Below the pieces are notes generated by a model. It did no database searches. It saw nothing but the letters and a program-made list of their open reading frames with translations, and was not told the origin of the DNA. This document shows, one piece after another, positions 1,485 to 29,500 of a stretch of DNA of 29,712 nt (position 1 is its first letter; each line of letters begins with the position of its first letter). Both the position numbers and the translations under genes were made by a program. The stretch is from positions 1-29,712 of the IMG/VR virus record IMGVR_UViG_3300049477_000036. The stretch is one strand, 5' to 3'. The stretch comes from a virus.

Positions 1485-1535
1485 ATTATAGCGCTTCCAA
1501 CGTCTCCGTGTAAACGCTTGTTACACACTGTTACA
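1485..1535 (-). promoter_or_regulatory. Minus-strand promoter with tandem TGTAAC boxes
   Basis: The -10 is TATAAT (1485-1490). TTTACA (1509-1514) sits at an 18-bp spacer and matches five of six bases of a sigma70 -35. Upstream are two TGTAAC hexamers (1520-1525 and 1530-1535), exactly 10 bp apart; the nearer one ends 29 bp before the -10. The farther box includes the TAA stop of the ligase gene. It drives the 127-, 46- and 230-aa genes. Confidence 0.75.
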
Positions 1536-2400
1536 CCTTGTAGAGCGACTTGAAGGTGCAGAATCTCGGCTGGTCTTTAATGCCGTATTCAAACCACTTG
1601 ATCGTAATGGTCTTCCCCACCAGTTCAGAGGGGTTGTTCCAATAGTGGATCCGATCTTCAGCGGTCATCTCTCCTGGGGATACTCGGAGTTGCTGTCCAG
1701 TAGTGACATTTGTAGCAAGGATTGTGCCCACTCGTCCTGCGTTAACCATGCCATCTTGTGAATGAGAGCGTTTGCTATGTCCAAGGGCATCAACTGTCTG
1801 AGGGTTATGATTAGACACACCCTCTTCGAGACCTGTGACAAGTGCTTCTCCGTCGCTAAATCGCTTAAACTTCCAAAGAATCTGGTCATTATGAGTTGCA
1901 CGTCCGAACTTGTATTGTCCATGAACACTCCTAATCATGACTCCTTCGTAGCCCAGGTCAACAGTGTCTTGCTCAAGCTGCAGAAACTGCTCGTACCCAT
2001 GCACGTCAAAGTGAGGGACAACAGAAATCCGGTGGTGCCTCACGTCGTACAAAGACCAATGCCGTGCTTTGAAGGCACGATTCGGTTGGTCAAAGTTATC
2101 AAACACGTGGAATGTAAACTCAGGTTCACCCTCCGTCGACATGATTCCAGACTGCGTACGTCCTAGTACGTTGCCCTTATTGGGCGCCCCCACTATTAGT
2201 TCGCCGTCCAAACCGGTGGGGAGGCCAGCCAGTTGATCTTGCACGAACTTATTGCGGAACGGCTTGAGGTTCCTGCTAAGTGCCACGCCGTCCCTAATAA
2301 TGCAACGTAGCCCATCGAGCTTCGGACTAACCATTATAGGAAACGTCAGTCGCAGAGGATCCTCCAACGTGGCTGACAGCAGTGGTCTAAAGTCTTTCAT
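1531..2400 (-). CDS. ATP-dependent DNA ligase
   Basis: The 289-aa product seals nicks in duplex DNA through a lysyl-AMP intermediate and probably joins lagging-strand fragments during phage replication. Visible nucleotidyltransferase motifs are: I, SPKLDGLR with catalytic Lys27; an LSR segment at 41-43; LDGELIV at 64-70 (motif III region); EGVMIR at 152-157 (motif IV); and LWKFKR at 175-180 (motif V). The C-terminal 90 residues would form the OB fold. It is compact, somewhat shorter than T7 ligase (about 359 aa). The start overlaps the primase stop by ATGA and has AAGGA 6 nt upstream, so the two are co-translated. Its stop codon lies inside a promoter element of the next operon. Confidence 0.93.
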   Translation of the reverse strand: MKDFRPLLSATLEDPLRLTFPIMVSPKLDGLRCIIRDGVALSRNLKPFRNKFVQDQLAGLPTGLDGELIVGAPNKGNVLGRTQSGIMSTEGEPEFTFHVFDNFDQPNRAFKARHWSLYDVRHHRISVVPHFDVHGYEQFLQLEQDTVDLGYEGVMIRSVHGQYKFGRATHNDQILWKFKRFSDGEALVTGLEEGVSNHNPQTVDALGHSKRSHSQDGMVNAGRVGTILATNVTTGQQLRVSPGEMTAEDRIHYWNNPSELVGKTITIKWFEYGIKDQPRFCTFKSLYKV

Positions 2401-4400
2401 GCGTTTTCCTTTTTGGTGGCAATGTAGCCGTTGATCATGAGTTGATCGTTGTTAATACCTTGTGTGTAGCTGTATCGTTGGCCCTCCGTCATGATAAGTT
2501 GTGGGAGTCTCTTACGTTGATTTACTAGCTTAAACGGGAAGGTGGGGGACGATGCCGCAGCTGAGAGCATACGAGCACACATGTTCTTGTCACGGGAGGA
2601 GTCCTCACCAAGACGCGCGGCTAGATACCCCGCAGTAATGTACAACTCATCAGTATCCCTAAGCTTCGCGGTATCCGCAGCTTCAAGCAAATTGACAAGC
2701 AACTCACTAATAGTATCAGCTCTGTGATACTGCGCATTGATAAGCTCTTGCACATTCGTGATATGTCTATGCTCATCTCGAAGTTGCTGCGGAGCTTGAT
2801 CCAAAGTCACTTGTAGCTTGTACCACTCGCTAGCACGAATCTCGGCTTCTTTGTGCCTCACTTCTGCTAGTATCTGAAGCTTCTCAGCATAAGGCAGCCG
2901 AGTTATTCTGCTAACTTCAAGATTAAGAAAACGACGACTACCAGTCTGGTCACCAAGCTGGTCTGTTCTGTTGGTAGTTCCCACAAACACATAGCCACGA
3001 GGCTCAATAGTAGGAACTTTTGAATAAGCCACTCGATATTCATCATGCGTCTGGGTAAGCATCTGCTTAACCCGATCCATAGTTGCTTTCTTAGTTTCGA
3101 AGATCACGCCTTCTGCTAGGTCAACAACCACGGACTTTGTGAACATCTGACCTTGTGTCCGGTTACTGTCACCAGCATTTCCAGAGACGTCAGTCACTGC
3201 GTAGTAAAACTGGTGCCCATCGAACTTGCTTAGGTCTTCAAAGAAAGAGGACTTTCCAATTCCCTGGGGACCGATAAGAATGCAAGCGAAGTCACACTTA
3301 GTACCTGGCCGTAGGATTCGAAGTCCCATGCTTGTCATGAGAATACGACCCCAGTCGTCCGCAAACGCGGGGAAGGCAGACTCTAAGTACTGACTACCCC
3401 AATGTGCTAAGCGCTCTGTGCCATCCCACTCAAGTGCTTGGATCTTCTCTTGCACTAGATCGCGTCGAACGCTTAGCGCCATCTGCATACCAGTACGAAT
3501 CTGGTGATGCTTGTAATAACTACTGATCTCATCTTGCATGTATGCTATGCAAGAAAACTCGAGATCCTGCGGGTCCGATAGCTCCCCGTCTTTGATAATG
3601 CCCAAGCGTTTGTCTGTGTAAACACGCCCATCGAAGTAGTATTTCAGGATCTTGCTTGCGTTGATCTCATTAAGTATCAGCTTATCCTCGTTGAGACTGC
3701 AACCAAGTGTCTTGTACAGCTGCTTTTTCGATTCCTCAAGCTGCTCGAAGGGTATGCCGATCAAGTCGGTAAGCGTGGCTGCGGTATCTGCCTCAAGCCA
3801 ATCGTCAACACCTTTGCCTTCAGGAACTCGAAAGACCTCGAGCTCACACGAGAAAGCTTTAATGGCATGCTTGAGCGCAGTTGCAGCCATCTGGATATTC
3901 GGCTTGCTAACAATGTCCCCATCAAAGATCGCGATCACGCGCATCTCCGGGGCCAGACACTGCTGAAGATTCGACAGCAACCGTCGAGTGCCATCGGCTA
4001 GCTGCTCAAGGCCATTCCACGCGCCACCGATACCTACTACAGAAGTATTGGGCCACCGCTTATGAAACCGAGCTGCCTTCTTCTCACCTTCAATGATGAA
4101 AAGAACATCGTCTTTGTTAGTTCGTGGATCTCGCTGATGCGGCCACCAAATGTCCCGAATGCCTTTTGGTTGGATGTACTTGTTAGTGGCACGATCTATC
4201 CTGATCCGGTACATGAGCGGGGAGCGATATGGCAAGACATACGCTCCGGCACCATCATAGCGCACAGAACTTATCGGATACGCTTGGACATCTTCAGGAG
4301 TCAGACCTGATCGCGCTAGGTCCTCGTGCATGAACTTAACGCTAAGCTCGTCTTGTGACGGGGAAGGCGCAATCAGTGAAAGTTGTGGCAAGGCTGCCAT
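2397..4400 (-). CDS. Primase-helicase (toprim-like N-terminus plus VirE-type P-loop ATPase)
   Basis: The 667-aa protein probably primes and unwinds the phage replication fork. The N-terminal half has toprim-like elements: IIEGEKKA (102-109, Glu104), IAIFDGD (157-162) and GKGVDDWL (195-202). The C-terminal half is a superfamily III-like ATPase as in VirE (virulence-associated E) proteins: Walker A GPQGIGKSS at 377-385, Walker B VVVDLAEG at 424-431, a TTNRTD sensor at 475-480 and a TGSRRF arginine finger near 486-491. The start has AAGGAGCT 2 nt before the ATG, and that SD is complementary to an upstream octamer in a folded leader (see 4403-4494). It is co-translated with the ligase. Confidence 0.9.
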   Translation of the reverse strand: MAALPQLSLIAPSPSQDELSVKFMHEDLARSGLTPEDVQAYPISSVRYDGAGAYVLPYRSPLMYRIRIDRATNKYIQPKGIRDIWWPHQRDPRTNKDDVLFIIEGEKKAARFHKRWPNTSVVGIGGAWNGLEQLADGTRRLLSNLQQCLAPEMRVIAIFDGDIVSKPNIQMAATALKHAIKAFSCELEVFRVPEGKGVDDWLEADTAATLTDLIGIPFEQLEESKKQLYKTLGCSLNEDKLILNEINASKILKYYFDGRVYTDKRLGIIKDGELSDPQDLEFSCIAYMQDEISSYYKHHQIRTGMQMALSVRRDLVQEKIQALEWDGTERLAHWGSQYLESAFPAFADDWGRILMTSMGLRILRPGTKCDFACILIGPQGIGKSSFFEDLSKFDGHQFYYAVTDVSGNAGDSNRTQGQMFTKSVVVDLAEGVIFETKKATMDRVKQMLTQTHDEYRVAYSKVPTIEPRGYVFVGTTNRTDQLGDQTGSRRFLNLEVSRITRLPYAEKLQILAEVRHKEAEIRASEWYKLQVTLDQAPQQLRDEHRHITNVQELINAQYHRADTISELLVNLLEAADTAKLRDTDELYITAGYLAARLGEDSSRDKNMCARMLSAAASSPTFPFKLVNQRKRLPQLIMTEGQRYSYTQGINNDQLMINGYIATKKENA

Positions 4401-4402
4401 AC

Positions 4403-4494
4403 AGCTCCTTAGTGTAGCCCCTAGACGCGAAACCCTAGGCTGGTAAGGCCTAGGGCTTTGTACTTCGCGGATGGTTACCAGCCATCAAGGAGCT
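4403..4494 (-). promoter_or_regulatory. Structured primase leader: three-way junction with complementary loops masking the SD
   Basis: In the minus-strand RNA, P1 pairs 4487-4494 with 4403-4410 (AGCTCCTT/AAGGAGCT), burying the primase Shine-Dalgarno in an 8-bp helix. P2 pairs 4482-4486 with 4470-4474 around a 7-nt loop (CTGGTAA). P3 pairs 4464-4469 with 4426-4431 (CGCGAA/TTCGCG) and continues, past an internal loop, as 4448-4455 with 4433-4440 around a 7-nt loop (CTTACCA). P1, P2 and P3 abut with no linker; only 4411-4425 joins P3 back to P1. The P2 and P3 loops are complementary over six bases (TGGTAA/TTACCA), allowing a kissing contact. The linker can pair alternatively with the 5' arm of P3. 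The layout recalls purine-riboswitch topology but the sequence does not. Ligand or trigger is unknown. Confidence 0.65.
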
Positions 4495-4495
4495 A

Positions 4496-4514
4496 GTGCA
4501 GCATTGCACTGCAC
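4496..4514 (-). promoter_or_regulatory. 5'-terminal mRNA stem-loop of the primase-ligase transcript
   Basis: A 6-bp stem (GTGCAG/CTGCAC, 7-nt loop) starts at the +1 predicted from the -10 at 4522-4527. It is directly followed by the folded leader at 4403-4494. Confidence 0.6.
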
Positions 4515-4521
4515 AGGTGTA

Positions 4522-4562
4522 ATTATATCGCAGCATTCGGCCTTTCGTTTACCTGCGTTACA
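4522..4562 (-). promoter_or_regulatory. Promoter for primase-ligase, YGTAAC class
   Basis: The -10 is TATAAT (4522-4527), with no recognisable -35 hexamer. TGTAAC lies at 4557-4562, 29 bp upstream of the -10, and GTAAAC at 4547-4552, 10 bp nearer and 19 bp from the -10. The same hexamers at the same distances occur at the late promoter (7433-7483). The missing -35 suggests activator dependence. Confidence 0.65.
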
Positions 4563-5943: not shown

Positions 5944-5958
5944 TCCATGCTCCTAGTT

Positions 5959-5981
5959 CCACGGAAACTATTTTCGCGTGG
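5959..5981 (-). promoter_or_regulatory. 5'-terminal mRNA stem-loop
   Basis: CCACG (5959-5963) pairs with CGTGG (5977-5981), and GAAA (5964-5967) with TTTC (5972-5975), leaving a one-base bulge. The stem begins at the +1 predicted from the -10 at 5988-5993, as at the other two minus-strand promoters. Confidence 0.6.
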
Positions 5982-5987
5982 TTACTA

Positions 5988-6027
5988 ATTATAACGCAAA
6001 AAGATAACCGAGAGAATTACTGTTACA
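5988..6027 (-). promoter_or_regulatory. Promoter for the small-gene cluster, YGTAAC class
   Basis: TATAAT (5988-5993) is preceded by TGTAAC (6022-6027) at 28 bp, one base shorter than in the related promoters. No good -35 is present. It drives the 63-, 45-, 106-, 141- and 75-aa genes. Confidence 0.6.
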
Positions 6028-6084
6028 TTCTGTTTCTTTTTGATCGGGGCACATTGTGCTAACTGTTTGGTGGGGGCGAATCTT

Positions 6085-6140
6085 GTGCTATGTGCTTAGT
6101 GCTATGTGCTAACTGCTATGTGCTTAGTGCTATGTGCTAA
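6085..6140. repeat. Eight tandem heptamers, consensus GTGCTWW
   Basis: Eight contiguous 7-bp units run from 6085 to 6140 (GTGCTAT, GTGCTTA, GTGCTAT, GTGCTAA, then the same four with the fifth starting C). They form a higher-order 28-bp duplication. A further isolated GTGCTAA lies just upstream near 6056. The block is non-coding. Confidence 0.85.
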
Positions 6141-6164
6141 CTTCTGGTGGGGCGAAATCTCGCG

Positions 6165-6376: not shown

Positions 6377-6467
6377 TAGCGCGAAGTGCTTCCTTTTGTT
6401 TACCACAAAATTAAACTGAGCACAACGAGCACAGTGTGCTAGCGCGAAATGCTTCCTTTTGTTTACC
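6377..6467. repeat. Long imperfect direct repeats, 28 bp, two copies 63 bp apart
   Basis: Copies at 6377-6404 and 6440-6467 (TAGCGCGAA...TTTGTTTACC) differ at one base. They are interleaved with second-order repeats: AACTGAG at 6414 and 6487, GCACAACGAGCA at 6420 and 6500, and GATTTTTGGGGCT at 6527 and 6548. The whole block 6370-6600 is repeat-built and non-coding. With the heptamers and AT tract it occupies the 638-bp gene-free stretch 5994-6631. Confidence 0.8.
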
Positions 6468-24626: not shown

Positions 24627-26353
24627 CCGGTAGCGTGCAGGGTCTGTTGGCGTATGGGGCGAACAGCCCGCCCCCGCCGTCGTGCTATCTCGAGGATTAC
24701 GACGGCGGCGTGGTAGGACTGACCGTCTACGAGGGGAGCACGACTGGCCTGCAAGACATCAGTACGCCCTACGGTCCCGGCATCTACGTGCCGAACATCG
24801 CAGGCGTCATTCGGGTGGGGAACCCAATCCCGACCACCGATGCGGTTCATATCAAGGGGTACTTCAAGATCCGCAGTTCGCCCGCGTCCAACGACGATGC
24901 GTTCCTGTACATCTATGAAGCAGCCATAGCCGAGCCGATCTGCTCGTTCAATGTACGACGCGAGATAACGTACGACTCGGCCCAACGCGCAGCGTTCAAT
25001 ATGAACGCGGACCCCGACAGTGGGTTCGCTGGGTACGGCGCATCTGTTGGTGCTCAGGCACTACCACTCGACGTTTGGCTCCGGCTTGAAATCCGTATCA
25101 GTGCGGTCGCTGGGGTGTCGTTCTGCCGGGTCATGGACGACGCCACCGATGTGATCGTCGCCAGCCTTACGATTCCTGTTGCGCTGCCGATCCGCCCCGC
25201 GAATGCCTATGCGCTCACGACCGAGGGCGTAGGCAGCTTCACTTCGGCCCCCGTGGATTGGGCCCCGTTCGAGGTCTGCCCGTTCTACGCAGCCATTCCA
25301 GCGTTCGGCGTCAAGAGCACCTATGGCTACGGGCCGGTGTTCTTGACGCCGAACATGACCCCGACGCTGCCGGATGGCATCATTGCGGGCGACCTGATTC
25401 TGGTCGCGGCCTGGACGGGCAACACTGCTGGTGGACCAGGAAGTGCGGCGGGTTATGAGCGCGTCGGCTACGTGAACCCCGGTGGTGGGCAAATAGGCTT
25501 CGGCGTGTTTGCGCGCGTCGCCACGGGCACGGCTGCGGATACCTGCATCATTGTGAATCCAGGCTTGGGTTGGGCATCCGCGCTTAGTTGGGTTATCGCG
25601 GGAGCGTCTGCCAACTCGGTCGGCGTTGTGACCGATTACACGCCAGACTCCGGCACGGCTGTCGCCTTCCCTGACGTTACCGACCAAGAGGCAGGGTTCC
25701 TCGCCATCGCTGCCGTGCAGATGGCAACGGGGGCGCAGATCAGCAGTTGGCCCTCGGGCTACTCGAACACCGTGTTCGCGGTCAACACGCTCAACGGGGG
25801 CAGCTCGGCGGCAAGCTCGAAGTACTATTCAGCTGGGGATGCTGTCACGCCTGGAATGACGCTCGTTGGCGGTGGGTACGCCTCCTCCATGACCATCACG
25901 GTTCTGGACAATGCCCCGTCTGCGGCGCGCGGCGTCGTTGACCCGCTCCCGATTGGGCAGATTGGCGACGATGTGCTGTCCCCCACGAACCCGAGCGCGT
26001 CACTCAACGTTGACAACCAGGGCTTGATCTCAGTTACGGGCAACGATTCAATTCTCACGGACCCAAGCAGGTGGTTCAACCCTGCGACCTCGGACATTGG
26101 GCGGAGTTACTACTTCAAGCTCACTGTGCTGAGCGGTTCTGGCCCCAACACCGGCCCCGGAGTTGGTGTCTGGCTCACCCCGCCGATGTTCAATAATTAC
26201 TACGGATGGCTCGCCGGGTACACCTGGACTTGGAGCCGTACCATCAACGGTACGACGACTGCCCAATGCCGCTTGGACGTTGCGACCTCGGCCAATGACG
26301 CCGATATCGTGGCATCCGCAACGTTCAACGTCACTGTGGTGAGGGGCCTATGA
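24623..26353 (+). CDS. Second fiber / receptor-binding protein, 576 aa
   Basis: The start is taken as the ATG at 24623, which overlaps the previous stop (ATGA). The frame is open for a further 66 nt upstream, but that lies inside the first fiber gene. The 576-aa product has three beta regions: residues about 40-200, resembling a lectin-like jelly roll (AVHIKGYFKIRSSPASNDDA); about 240-440, a fiber domain with ADLILVAAWTGN-type strands; and a C-terminal region with YYFKLTVLSGSGPNTGPGVG. G/C-rich codon use differs from the ejection genes, hinting at a modular or transferred fiber block. Confidence 0.65.
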   Translation: MTGSVQGLLAYGANSPPPPSCYLEDYDGGVVGLTVYEGSTTGLQDISTPYGPGIYVPNIAGVIRVGNPIPTTDAVHIKGYFKIRSSPASNDDAFLYIYEAAIAEPICSFNVRREITYDSAQRAAFNMNADPDSGFAGYGASVGAQALPLDVWLRLEIRISAVAGVSFCRVMDDATDVIVASLTIPVALPIRPANAYALTTEGVGSFTSAPVDWAPFEVCPFYAAIPAFGVKSTYGYGPVFLTPNMTPTLPDGIIAGDLILVAAWTGNTAGGPGSAAGYERVGYVNPGGGQIGFGVFARVATGTAADTCIIVNPGLGWASALSWVIAGASANSVGVVTDYTPDSGTAVAFPDVTDQEAGFLAIAAVQMATGAQISSWPSGYSNTVFAVNTLNGGSSAASSKYYSAGDAVTPGMTLVGGGYASSMTITVLDNAPSAARGVVDPLPIGQIGDDVLSPTNPSASLNVDNQGLISVTGNDSILTDPSRWFNPATSDIGRSYYFKLTVLSGSGPNTGPGVGVWLTPPMFNNYYGWLAGYTWTWSRTINGTTTAQCRLDVATSANDADIVASATFNVTVVRGL

Positions 26354-26508: not shown

Positions 26509-29500
26509 TGGCTGACGGTACGATCTCCCCCATCGGTGAAATCTATGCCACTACGGACGCTCCTAGTGCTACGTCCGTCTGGCATAACGGACTCTGCTAC
26601 GCGGCCAACGGAAACCTGCACATCTCTACGACGCCCGCACCTACTGACTTCTACCTGCGGGGGCAGCGGTTCAACGCCAACGGTGCAATGGTCGTCGGGG
26701 TGGGGGACGTAGCCAATCGTCCGTACTGGGGCAACAACGGCTTCCCCGCCCGCAAGACCGATGACGGTCTGGTTTATCAGGCCAATCAGACACCAGATCC
26801 AGTGGATCCGTATGTCCATGGAGTACGCATCGGACTACTTGGTGGGGTATATATGATCACTGGCGTGGTCGTACTCCCACCGCAGATCCTTACAGAACCA
26901 GCTATTCTCCCACCAGTTCAGCAAGGTACAGCTGTTTCAGCAACCTCTGCAGTAGTATCCAATGGGGCTACGCTCACGCAACGTCGCTGGTACGTCGCTG
27001 CTGTTCAAGTTGCTACCACAGCCACGTACACGCCTGTTGCTGGCGATGTCGGTAAGGAACTCACCTATCAAGAGACCTGGACCAATTCAGCTGGTTCAGT
27101 AATCGGATACGCACTGCCCGCCACCGTAGGAGCATTGCCGGTATCTCCCCCTACCGTCACTACGCAGCCTGCTATCACCCCACCTGTGGGCGTGGGGCTG
27201 GTCGTAGCTGCTACTTCTGCAACCGTGACTAATGGCGCCACGCTTACGTCTAGGCGCTGGCTCGTCGCCAATGTACAAGTAGCTACCACGGCGACCTATA
27301 CTCCAGTTGCTGGGGACGTAGACAAGCAGCTCACCTACGAGGAAACCTGGACCAATTCGGCCGGTTCTGTGATCGGGTACGCCCCCGGCGTGAACATCGC
27401 TGGTACCGCTCCTGGTACCACGACATTGCCCGTGATCAATACTCCGGTAACTGTTGGGGTAGCCACGACATATGTGCCGGGTGCAGCTAGTGGGGTCCCG
27501 GCACCTATCGTATCCGCTAGGCAATGGTTCCTCGATGCAGCCCCCATCAGTGGGGCGACAGGTACTACATACACACCGGTTTCTGGTGATGTCGGTAAGG
27601 CGCTTACTATTCGTGAAACCTGGACAAACAACGTAGGTAGTGTGTTTGCTACGTCGCTGCCGCAGACGGTGGGGGCGGCGTCGAGCCCGCCTGTTGTTGT
27701 AACAAACCCAACTGTTAATGACCCCGTAAGTGTAGGTGTTGCTTGCACATACAGCCCGGGCTCTGCTAGTGGCTCGCCTACGCCAACTGTGTCTGCGCAA
27801 GCGTGGTATCTTGATGGTATGGCAATTCCCGGAGCAACTGCCCCCACCTATACGCCTGTTCTAGGGGATTACGGTAAAGCGTTGTCGATTAAGGTCACGT
27901 GGCTTAATGCTAGTGGTACTGCTGAGGGCACGTCTGCTAGTAAACCAGTTGCAAATATGTTTCCGCAAATTGAGTTCGATTTCATGACGGGGAGCATGGA
28001 TTCACGACTCACGTTTACTCGCACTAGTGTAGCTACCTATTTCGATGCTGCTGGGATTATGCAGACGGCATCAGCTAACATTTTGCGGTTTGACCATGAT
28101 CCTATTACACTTACGCTTAAGGGCGCATTGATTGAGAATACCTCAACCAATTCGTTCCTAAATAGCGAAGTACCTATAGACCAAACCGTTAACGTTACTG
28201 GTGCACTATGGACAGTTAGCTTTTATGGTACCGGTACGATCGGTCTTACTGGGGCACATGTCACCACAATCAATGGTACAGGCGCGTATCCTATTCGTAC
28301 ATCATTGACGTTTACGCCTACCGCAGGGCCGTTGGTTATTGACGTTACTGGAGACGTACAGAAGGTTCAAGTGGAACTTGGCTTCCAAGCGTCCAGCTAT
28401 ATTTTGACGACAGGTGCTGCAGCAACGCGCGCATTTGAACGCCTGTATTGGACAGGTACGACGTTCGACAATACCTACAATTCGCAAGCTGGAACAATGC
28501 AGATCAACGCATTGACCCAGAACACGCAGCCGAGTACCGGGAATCTCTTTGGCGCCATAGGAACTACTGCGTTTAGCGCGGATCGTCAACTCAGCCTGGA
28601 TTGGTTGAATACAGGGGTCAGTGTAGCCGTCAACGACCTTGGTACTACATTGACCGTATACACCGGCACGGTCGCCAATTCGGCACTACAGATAATTGGC
28701 GGCTATGACTACGGCCTAGGCGTCAAACAAGGCACGGTGAATGGTGGCACGGTGTCTAGCAATGCCAAGTCGACGCAGCCCGCAAACACCGCCACACGGC
28801 TGACTATCGGTTCCGCGCCGAACGCTGCGGCATACGTCCCTGGTTGGTACCAGATAGTGCGGTACTGGGCGACTATGCTTGATGATACGGAAATGCAAGA
28901 TTGGACCGGAGGCGTACCACCAGTAGTCACGCCCGTAGGTACTATAAATTACAGTCAAGCTTGGGATCAAACGGCCGGACCCGCTGCTTGGGTTGTGCAG
29001 TCCACCCCGGCTACGTCTATCCCAGTCCAAGTCGTCAATGGCGAGGTATCCATCAATGGCGTGCCAAGCAACACTTTCTTCAACACGTTGATGGGCCCTG
29101 GCACGATGTTGAAAGTGGACTCTGAAATTACGGCGAGTATTGCTCGTCTGGTCAGTGATGGGGTTGATGGCCTGCGGTTACGCGGGATGATCGAAAACTG
29201 GTGGGAGGAAAACTCTCAGAACTGGGGGTTGTGGGCGCACCCGGTAGATTGGCCTGTGGTGGCGGAGCGTGCGGACTTTGCCGAAGCTGCACTAGTGCAG
29301 CTGGACAAGACCGTAGCCACGGCCCTAGCCGAGGGTATAGCAGTCTTCACTATCGACATTGACTGGTGGCATCACGTAAATGACCGCAACGATCCGCAAA
29401 TGCCTTGGGGCACGTATCGCGGCACGGGCATGTACTGGAGCCCCGACTACAATGCTAGGTCGTGGAGCTTGTGGCTCAAACTCCTGAATCGCGTCAACAC

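Follow-up and report, generated by a model that had tools for sequence, protein, structure and literature searches.

The add adenine riboswitch of Vibrio vulnificus acts on translation through a three-way junction and strand exchange, with the closed junction as the ON state (PMC10907184). The maturation gene of phage MS2 has a leader whose Shine-Dalgarno sequence (SD) stays open in a transient structure until a cloverleaf forms and buries it (cited in PMC6733600). The T4 gp43 operator keeps its loop bases on a variable stem (PMC3014915). One paper regards riboswitches as rare in phages; the glutamine riboswitch that it reports from phage Melnitz belongs to a family described earlier in bacteria (PMC9004378). 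The element presented here precedes a primase-helicase gene of a dsDNA phage and is probably a cis-acting, bistable leader RNA, which would control the translation of the primase-helicase and of the DNA ligase whose gene overlaps it by 4 nt. To our knowledge, conserved bistable leader RNAs have seldom been described in dsDNA phages, and literature searches yielded no paper on this leader element.

The analysed stretch of DNA, called the window in the following, is an entire virus record of 29.7 kb. Judged by its terminase and portal genes, it is a tailed phage. The nearest known relatives of the portal protein, including those of the Myxococcus phages Mx9 and Mx8, are 35-40% identical. Among known phages no DNA-level match to the window was found, the protein-level matches reaching only ~30% identity or lower, and no relative turned up in the bacterial genomes searched. 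The primase-helicase, encoded on the minus strand, has a length of 667 aa, contains a VapE-like domain (PF05272) as well as a DUF3854 region and starts with an ATG at 4400-4398. The first 4 nt of the ligase gene are also the last of the primase gene, likewise in the related phage L002, and the two genes would be translationally coupled via this overlap.

The genes and the elements of the leader are listed in Table 1. Transcription would start ~7 nt downstream of the TATAAT box, at the first base of the hairpin H0; a consensus -35 was not found for this promoter. The initial annotation had reported an SD octamer perfectly complementary to an upstream strand, two hairpins abutting this helix and each other, and a six-base complementarity of their loops. 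All three are present in the minus strand: AGCTCCTT (4494-4487) is fully complementary to AAGGAGCT (4410-4403), 76 nt separating the two, P1, P2 and P3 abut without linkers, and TGGTAA (4480-4475) is complementary to TTACCA (4446-4441). P3 is divided into P3a with 6 bp, a 7-nt 5′ bulge GTACAAA (4457-4463), P3b with 9 bp and the loop CTTACCA (L3, 4441-4447). This bulge, H0 and the ability of the linker to pair with the anti-SD strand (TAGCTCCT/AGGGGCTA, one G-U) were absent from that description.

Table 1. Genes and leader elements of the window with positions, strand and basis or remarks.
Feature	Positions	Strand	Basis or remarks
Primase-helicase gene	2397..4400	-	Pfam PF05272 E 1.9e-37; PF12965 E 1.9e-11; PHROG helicase/primase families
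ATP-dependent DNA ligase gene	1531..2400	-	phrog_114 E 6e-45; PF01068
-10 box TATAAT	4522..4527	-	sequence; leader promoter
H0 hairpin GTGCAG-TGCAATG-CTGCAC	4496..4514	-	5′-terminal; begins 7 nt after TATAAT
P1 5′ strand (T)AGCTCCTT, anti-SD	4487..4495	-	two alternative partners
P2 hairpin GATGG-CTGGTAA-CCATC	4470..4486	-	5 bp; loop CTGGTAA = L2; covariation
P3 hairpin CGCGAA-(GTACAAA bulge)-GCCCTAGGC-CTTACCA-GCCTAGGGT-TTCGCG	4426..4469	-	covariation
P1 proximal 3′ strand AGGGGCTA (decoy, anti-anti-SD)	4415..4422	-	3 nt after P3; pairs with 4488-4495
P1 distal 3′ strand AAGGAGCT, primase SD	4403..4410	-	pairs with 4487-4494

In the window alone, the 106-nt region folds with a z of -2.7, and 2 of 200 shuffles were equally good. 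In comparison with 5000 shuffled versions of the anti-SD strand, the true strand pairs better with the SD (p 2e-4); likewise, shuffled linkers pair less well with this strand than the real linker does (p 4e-4). The unconstrained minimum free energy structure of this single sequence keeps P1 with the SD, and P2 is displaced by another pairing. The junction is therefore not settled from one sequence, and it is the comparison with relatives that settles it.

The leader was found directly before the primase gene, in the same architecture as in the window, in four relatives, whose primases are 68% (L004), 54% (L002), 54% (L011) and 49% (L010) identical to that of the window (protein search; upstream region intact). 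The common order consists of a -10 box (TATAAT or TAAAAT in the relatives), 7 nt, H0, the anti-SD strand, P2, P3, a short U-rich J3/1, the proximal strand, the SD and the start codon. In all five phages J2/3 has 0 nt, and the 5′ bulge of P3 lies at an equal position with 5-7 mostly A-rich nucleotides. The letters of the junction vary, and junction and bulge contain almost no invariant nucleotides among these phages, whose proteins are 49-68% identical. All five sequences of this comparison set are metagenomic, and a sixth did not turn up within the limits of the scans: pattern searches that combined H0 and a downstream ACCA or CTCC revealed no further leader, and further primase scans yielded only truncated or leaderless relatives. 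L003, L005 and L131 end before the leader. Second copies within the same phages were not found.

More distant primases lack the element. Those of L006-L009 (43-45% identity) have a short leader without this structure, and that of L012 (41%) is preceded by a different junction leader (3835-3982) with the +1 hairpin loop ACTC. The device is therefore dispensable. Upstream of position 4001, the SD of L006-L009 is ACAAGGGG, and a AGGATTGTACAAAGGAACAAAAAAG promoter region with strong conservation stands in place of the switch. The junction leader of L012 comprises a P2 loop GTGA, a P3 loop TAGC and an ACAAA bulge.

When a covariance model was made from the window only, with the proximal P1, its top match in each relative was this leader, with E-values of 2.8e-14 (L004), 4.2e-5 (L002), 1.3e-4 (L011) and 8.1e-4 (L010) with filters off and 28 kb searched; default filters recover only L004 and L010. 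The refined model R2 was run on 12 records: the five with the leader gave one site each, and the other seven gave none. In 1.25 Mb of unrelated phage DNA it gave no convincing match (best E 0.41). This model is usable for finding further copies.

In the alignment of the five leaders, which had been fitted to the structure, 97.6% of the cells are paired, compared to 41-49% with the partners slid by 1-3 columns. Two-sided changes occur in 26 of the 34 pairs of this alignment and in 9/9 pairs of P3b. RNAalifold returned the same fold unaided from the structure-fitted alignment, with a covariation term of -12.0; MAFFT alone misaligns the helices and its consensus is poor. Independently of columns, helix arms were segmented by hand from the raw sequences, the segmentation and the descriptor limits being chosen after inspection of the sequences: 127/130 were paired with both arms from one phage, compared to 36-58% with arms combined across phages, and for each helix the own arms were the best of 120 assignments. 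Over the five leaders, 12 G-U pairs and 0 A-C pairs were counted; hence, the fold is kept in the minus-strand mRNA. The three-way junction able to sequester the primase SD in the mRNA sense, as originally proposed, thus recurs in four more phages with strong covariation. The covariation suggested as a check was obtained for the helices P1, P2 and P3 but not for the loop pair.

The anti-SD strand, whose CUCC core lies between H0 and P2, has two partners in each of the five phages. The first is the proximal decoy, which starts 3-5 nt after P3 and closes a compact three-way junction with the SD free. Its pairing is UAGCUCCU/AGGGGCUA in the window, UCUCCGU/ACGGGGA in L002, UGUCUCC/GGGGACA in L011, CUCCAG/CUGGAG in L010 and ACCUUCU/AGAAGGU in L004. 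The second partner is the SD itself, with AGCUCCUU/AAGGAGCU in the window, CUCCGU/ACGGAG in L002, UCUCCUG/CAGGAGA in L011 and AUCUCC/GGAGAU in L010. This distal pairing is clear in these four phages and weak in L004, where it comprises CCUU/AAGG only (4 bp). The GGAG-like strand found in the proximal helix of L010 and L004 is not the SD. For the own-strand totals, the proximal pairing was the best of 120 assignments and the SD pairing among the best 2 of 120, and shuffle tests gave Fisher p-values of 8e-10 and 6e-7, respectively. Both pairings exist and have co-evolved, and two mutually exclusive folds, one of them burying the SD, are found in these phages (weakly in L004). A second fold had been expected in the initial annotation as well, based on the 15-nt linker (4425-4411) and the 5′ arm of P3. 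This pairing (AGCCCTAG/CTAGGGGCT) can form, but in the window only; the conserved alternative is that between the anti-SD strand and the proximal decoy.

The energies of the state with the SD free (ON) and with the SD paired (OFF), which leave aside a possible loop-loop contact, proteins and the speed of transcription, are -45.6/-46.5 kcal/mol in the window, -53.2/-51.7 in L002, -45.4/-46.6 in L011, -42.6/-42.5 in L010 and -44.8/-39.2 in L004. The gap is ≤1.5 kcal/mol in four of five phages, and L004 prefers the proximal form by 5.6 kcal/mol. In growing transcripts, folded at equilibrium without pseudoknots and not kinetically, the proximal form has a probability of 0.94-1.00 in all five phages before the SD is made. 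Once it is made, the SD-paired form reaches 0.95-1.00 in the window, L002 and L011, L010 is mixed and L004 remains proximal. For some of the longer transcripts, the computed balance fluctuates between both forms. As its SD pairing is weak, L004 would be ON by default.

The loop of H0, UGCAAUG, and its closing G-C pair are identical in all five phages and form the most conserved element of the leader. The arms of H0 pair at 30/33 positions within their own phage (closing pair excluded) and at 36% when swapped between phages. As its 7-nt loop with UGCAA is closed by G-C, H0 was considered as a possible T-loop. Hairpins capped by GUGCAAUGC were also observed at +1 of unrelated phage genes in L017 (1924-1960), L032 (4079-4110) and L087 (1805-1835); judged by its sequence, the gene in L017 resembles the T4-type late sigma factor gp55. 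In these three records, GTGCAATGC-capped hairpins after the -10 box are commoner than chance pairing predicts. Since the capped +1 hairpins of unrelated phages occur without a junction, H0 may be a separate and wider module or a general 5′-end hairpin.

The loop motifs TGGT in L2 and ACCA in L3 are common to four phages; L011 has AGTCA and TTGACC, which still form 4 bp. In register, 84% of the cells of the loop pair are paired, compared to 10-44% when slid, and the complementarity exceeds that of shuffled loops (p 0.0045). The proposed loop-loop pair is conserved to this extent, but it does not covary, as letters dealt among the sequences do as well (276 of 500 shuffles as good), and six pure Watson-Crick base pairs are found in the window alone. 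Based on the complementarity, a kissing contact between L2 and L3 is possible. The UGG of L2 and the ACCA of L3 also recall T-box and tRNA ends; a T-box was rejected, as neither a family match nor a specifier was found.

For the action of the leader, the following course is proposed. The transcript would begin at H0, and P2 and P3 would fold as they are transcribed. The anti-SD strand would then take the first complement to emerge, the proximal decoy, so that the junction is closed and the SD is free (ON). The emerging SD would subsequently capture the anti-SD strand by strand exchange and become buried (OFF), and the change between the two states would alter expression. As the input, a trans-acting protein or the folding delay itself is preferred, acting via the invariant H0 loop UGCAAUG and the conserved loops L2 and L3. 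The placement of invariant loops on variable stems favours such a protein input or a timing by structure only; a small-molecule input is less likely.

The folding delay on its own would make the leader a pure kinetic timer without a ligand, in which the nascent mRNA is translated and then refolds with the SD paired, giving a short burst of primase. Tentative support for this possibility comes from the dominance of the proximal form before the SD is made, with a flip in three of the five phages, from the near-equal energies of both states and from the absence of a conserved ligand core. The MS2 maturation leader is a precedent: its transient structure is described as permitting translation until the cloverleaf has buried the SD (PMC6733600). 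Both are branched phage mRNA leaders in which a far-upstream strand buries the SD, and this burial in the final fold is found in the window, L002 and L011 and partly in L010. However, MS2 is an RNA phage, in contrast to the dsDNA phage here, and here a conserved decoy acts as the transient partner and closes a three-way junction. Slow refolding might open a period for translation, the folding computed here being equilibrium folding only. The timer leaves the invariant UGCAAUG loop, the conserved loops L2 and L3 and the bulge of P3 unexplained, and L004 and partly L010 would fail to switch off.

A tentative explanation is a protein operator, where a phage protein (the primase, the ligase or another) would favour the ON or the OFF state by binding to H0 and the junction, as T4 gp43 and gp32 do on the leaders of their own genes. 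A phage replication protein as an autogenous regulator is the simplest candidate for such an input. The most conserved letters form a hairpin loop on freely changing stems, comparable to the gp43 operator (PMC3014915), replication genes are a precedent for autogenous control, and the leader occurs in a single copy per phage, always preceding the primase. Like the T4 gene 43 and gene 32 operators, the leader is structured and lies at the ribosome site of a gene for replication, and its position and conserved loop are compatible with an autogenous operator of the gp43/gp32 type. The T4 operators are a simple hairpin or a pseudoknot, in contrast to the bistable three-way junction here. A point against a dedicated operator is that the H0-like hairpins also occur at +1 of unrelated genes without the junction.

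A doubtful reading is that the leader represents a new class of dsDNA-phage RNA sensor. In such a sensor, the junction and the H0 loop would detect a nucleotide, a replication intermediate or a replication protein, and the conserved exchange of SD and decoy would adjust the synthesis of primase and ligase to how far replication has come.

A metabolite or ion riboswitch, in which the binding of a small molecule to the compact three-way junction and its kissing loops would stabilise them and switch translation ON as in the add adenine riboswitch, is unlikely. The conserved strand-exchange expression platform, the junction with its complementary 7-nt loops, the short U-rich J3/1 and the mostly A-rich bulge in all five phages would fit such a device. 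Both RNAs are three-way junctions with complementary P2 and P3 loops, and in both a P1 strand is swapped to a partner that hides the SD. However, the leader has no J2/3 core, a far longer P3 with a 7-nt bulge, an extra 5′ hairpin and a variable junction sequence, and the purine-type ligand core of J2/3 and J1/2 is absent from all five leaders. A conserved aptamer core was not found, as the invariant letters lie in the H0 loop and a few positions of L2 and L3 and not in the junction; a classical metabolite aptamer is disfavoured because the junction lacks such a core. The loop pair, in addition, does not covary. In Rfam searches with the leaders of the window, L011 and L004, no riboswitch was matched even at E 10: the purine riboswitch (RF00167) gave no match at the gathering score or at E≤10, and no other family did so beyond chance, the chance matches (e.g., OrzO-P, P26 and NsiR1) lying far below the cut-off. 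The Melnitz glutamine riboswitch has a known family and ligand, and the leader shows no Rfam match to that family. By these tests, the leader belongs to none of the compared systems, as it has neither an Rfam match nor a purine-type core.

Finally, a static role, as protection of the 5′ end, constant damping of translation, a DNA element (origin or protein site) or a terminator, is improbable: stable 5′-end hairpins do occur in other phage leaders and one terminator-like site lies on the plus strand at P3b, but two mutually exclusive pairings of one strand both co-evolve, the excess of G-U over A-C pairs indicates the mRNA strand and speaks against a DNA element, and for an intrinsic terminator or attenuator neither the U or A run beside P3b nor the plus-strand site is conserved, a U run after P3 being present in L010 and L011 only.

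The leader adjoins genes that initiate DNA replication, is supported by strong covariation and can be read mechanically as one strand with two partners. In the preferred reading, it would show timing or autoregulation of phage replication proteins at the RNA level.

Several repeats were observed in the window besides the leader. A GGTAAAC(A/G)AAAGG... repeat on the minus strand is present at 4526-4553, 6377-6404 and 6440-6467; the first copy sits where the -35 would be expected, just 5′ of the leader -10 box, and the two others are intergenic, near 6.4 kb. It is possibly an activator or operator site or a replication iteron. The long intergenic region contains tandem 14-nt repeats (ttagcacatagcac / taagcacatagcag) at 6055-6141, and a similar ttagtactaagcactaagtacttag repeat was found in L010 at 1140-1175. 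At ~5950-5998, also on the minus strand, a second TATAAT stands ~7 nt ahead of the hairpin CCACG...CGTGG, which immediately precedes AGGAG/ATG; this is another leader of the phage whose hairpin lies close to +1. Furthermore, imperfect repeats of ~270 nt (2-3 copies, 74-76% identity) at 26940-27800 are likely repeated domains of a structural protein, and a 19-nt inverted repeat (95% complementary, 14-nt spacer) lies at 25303-25354 within a plus-strand open reading frame.
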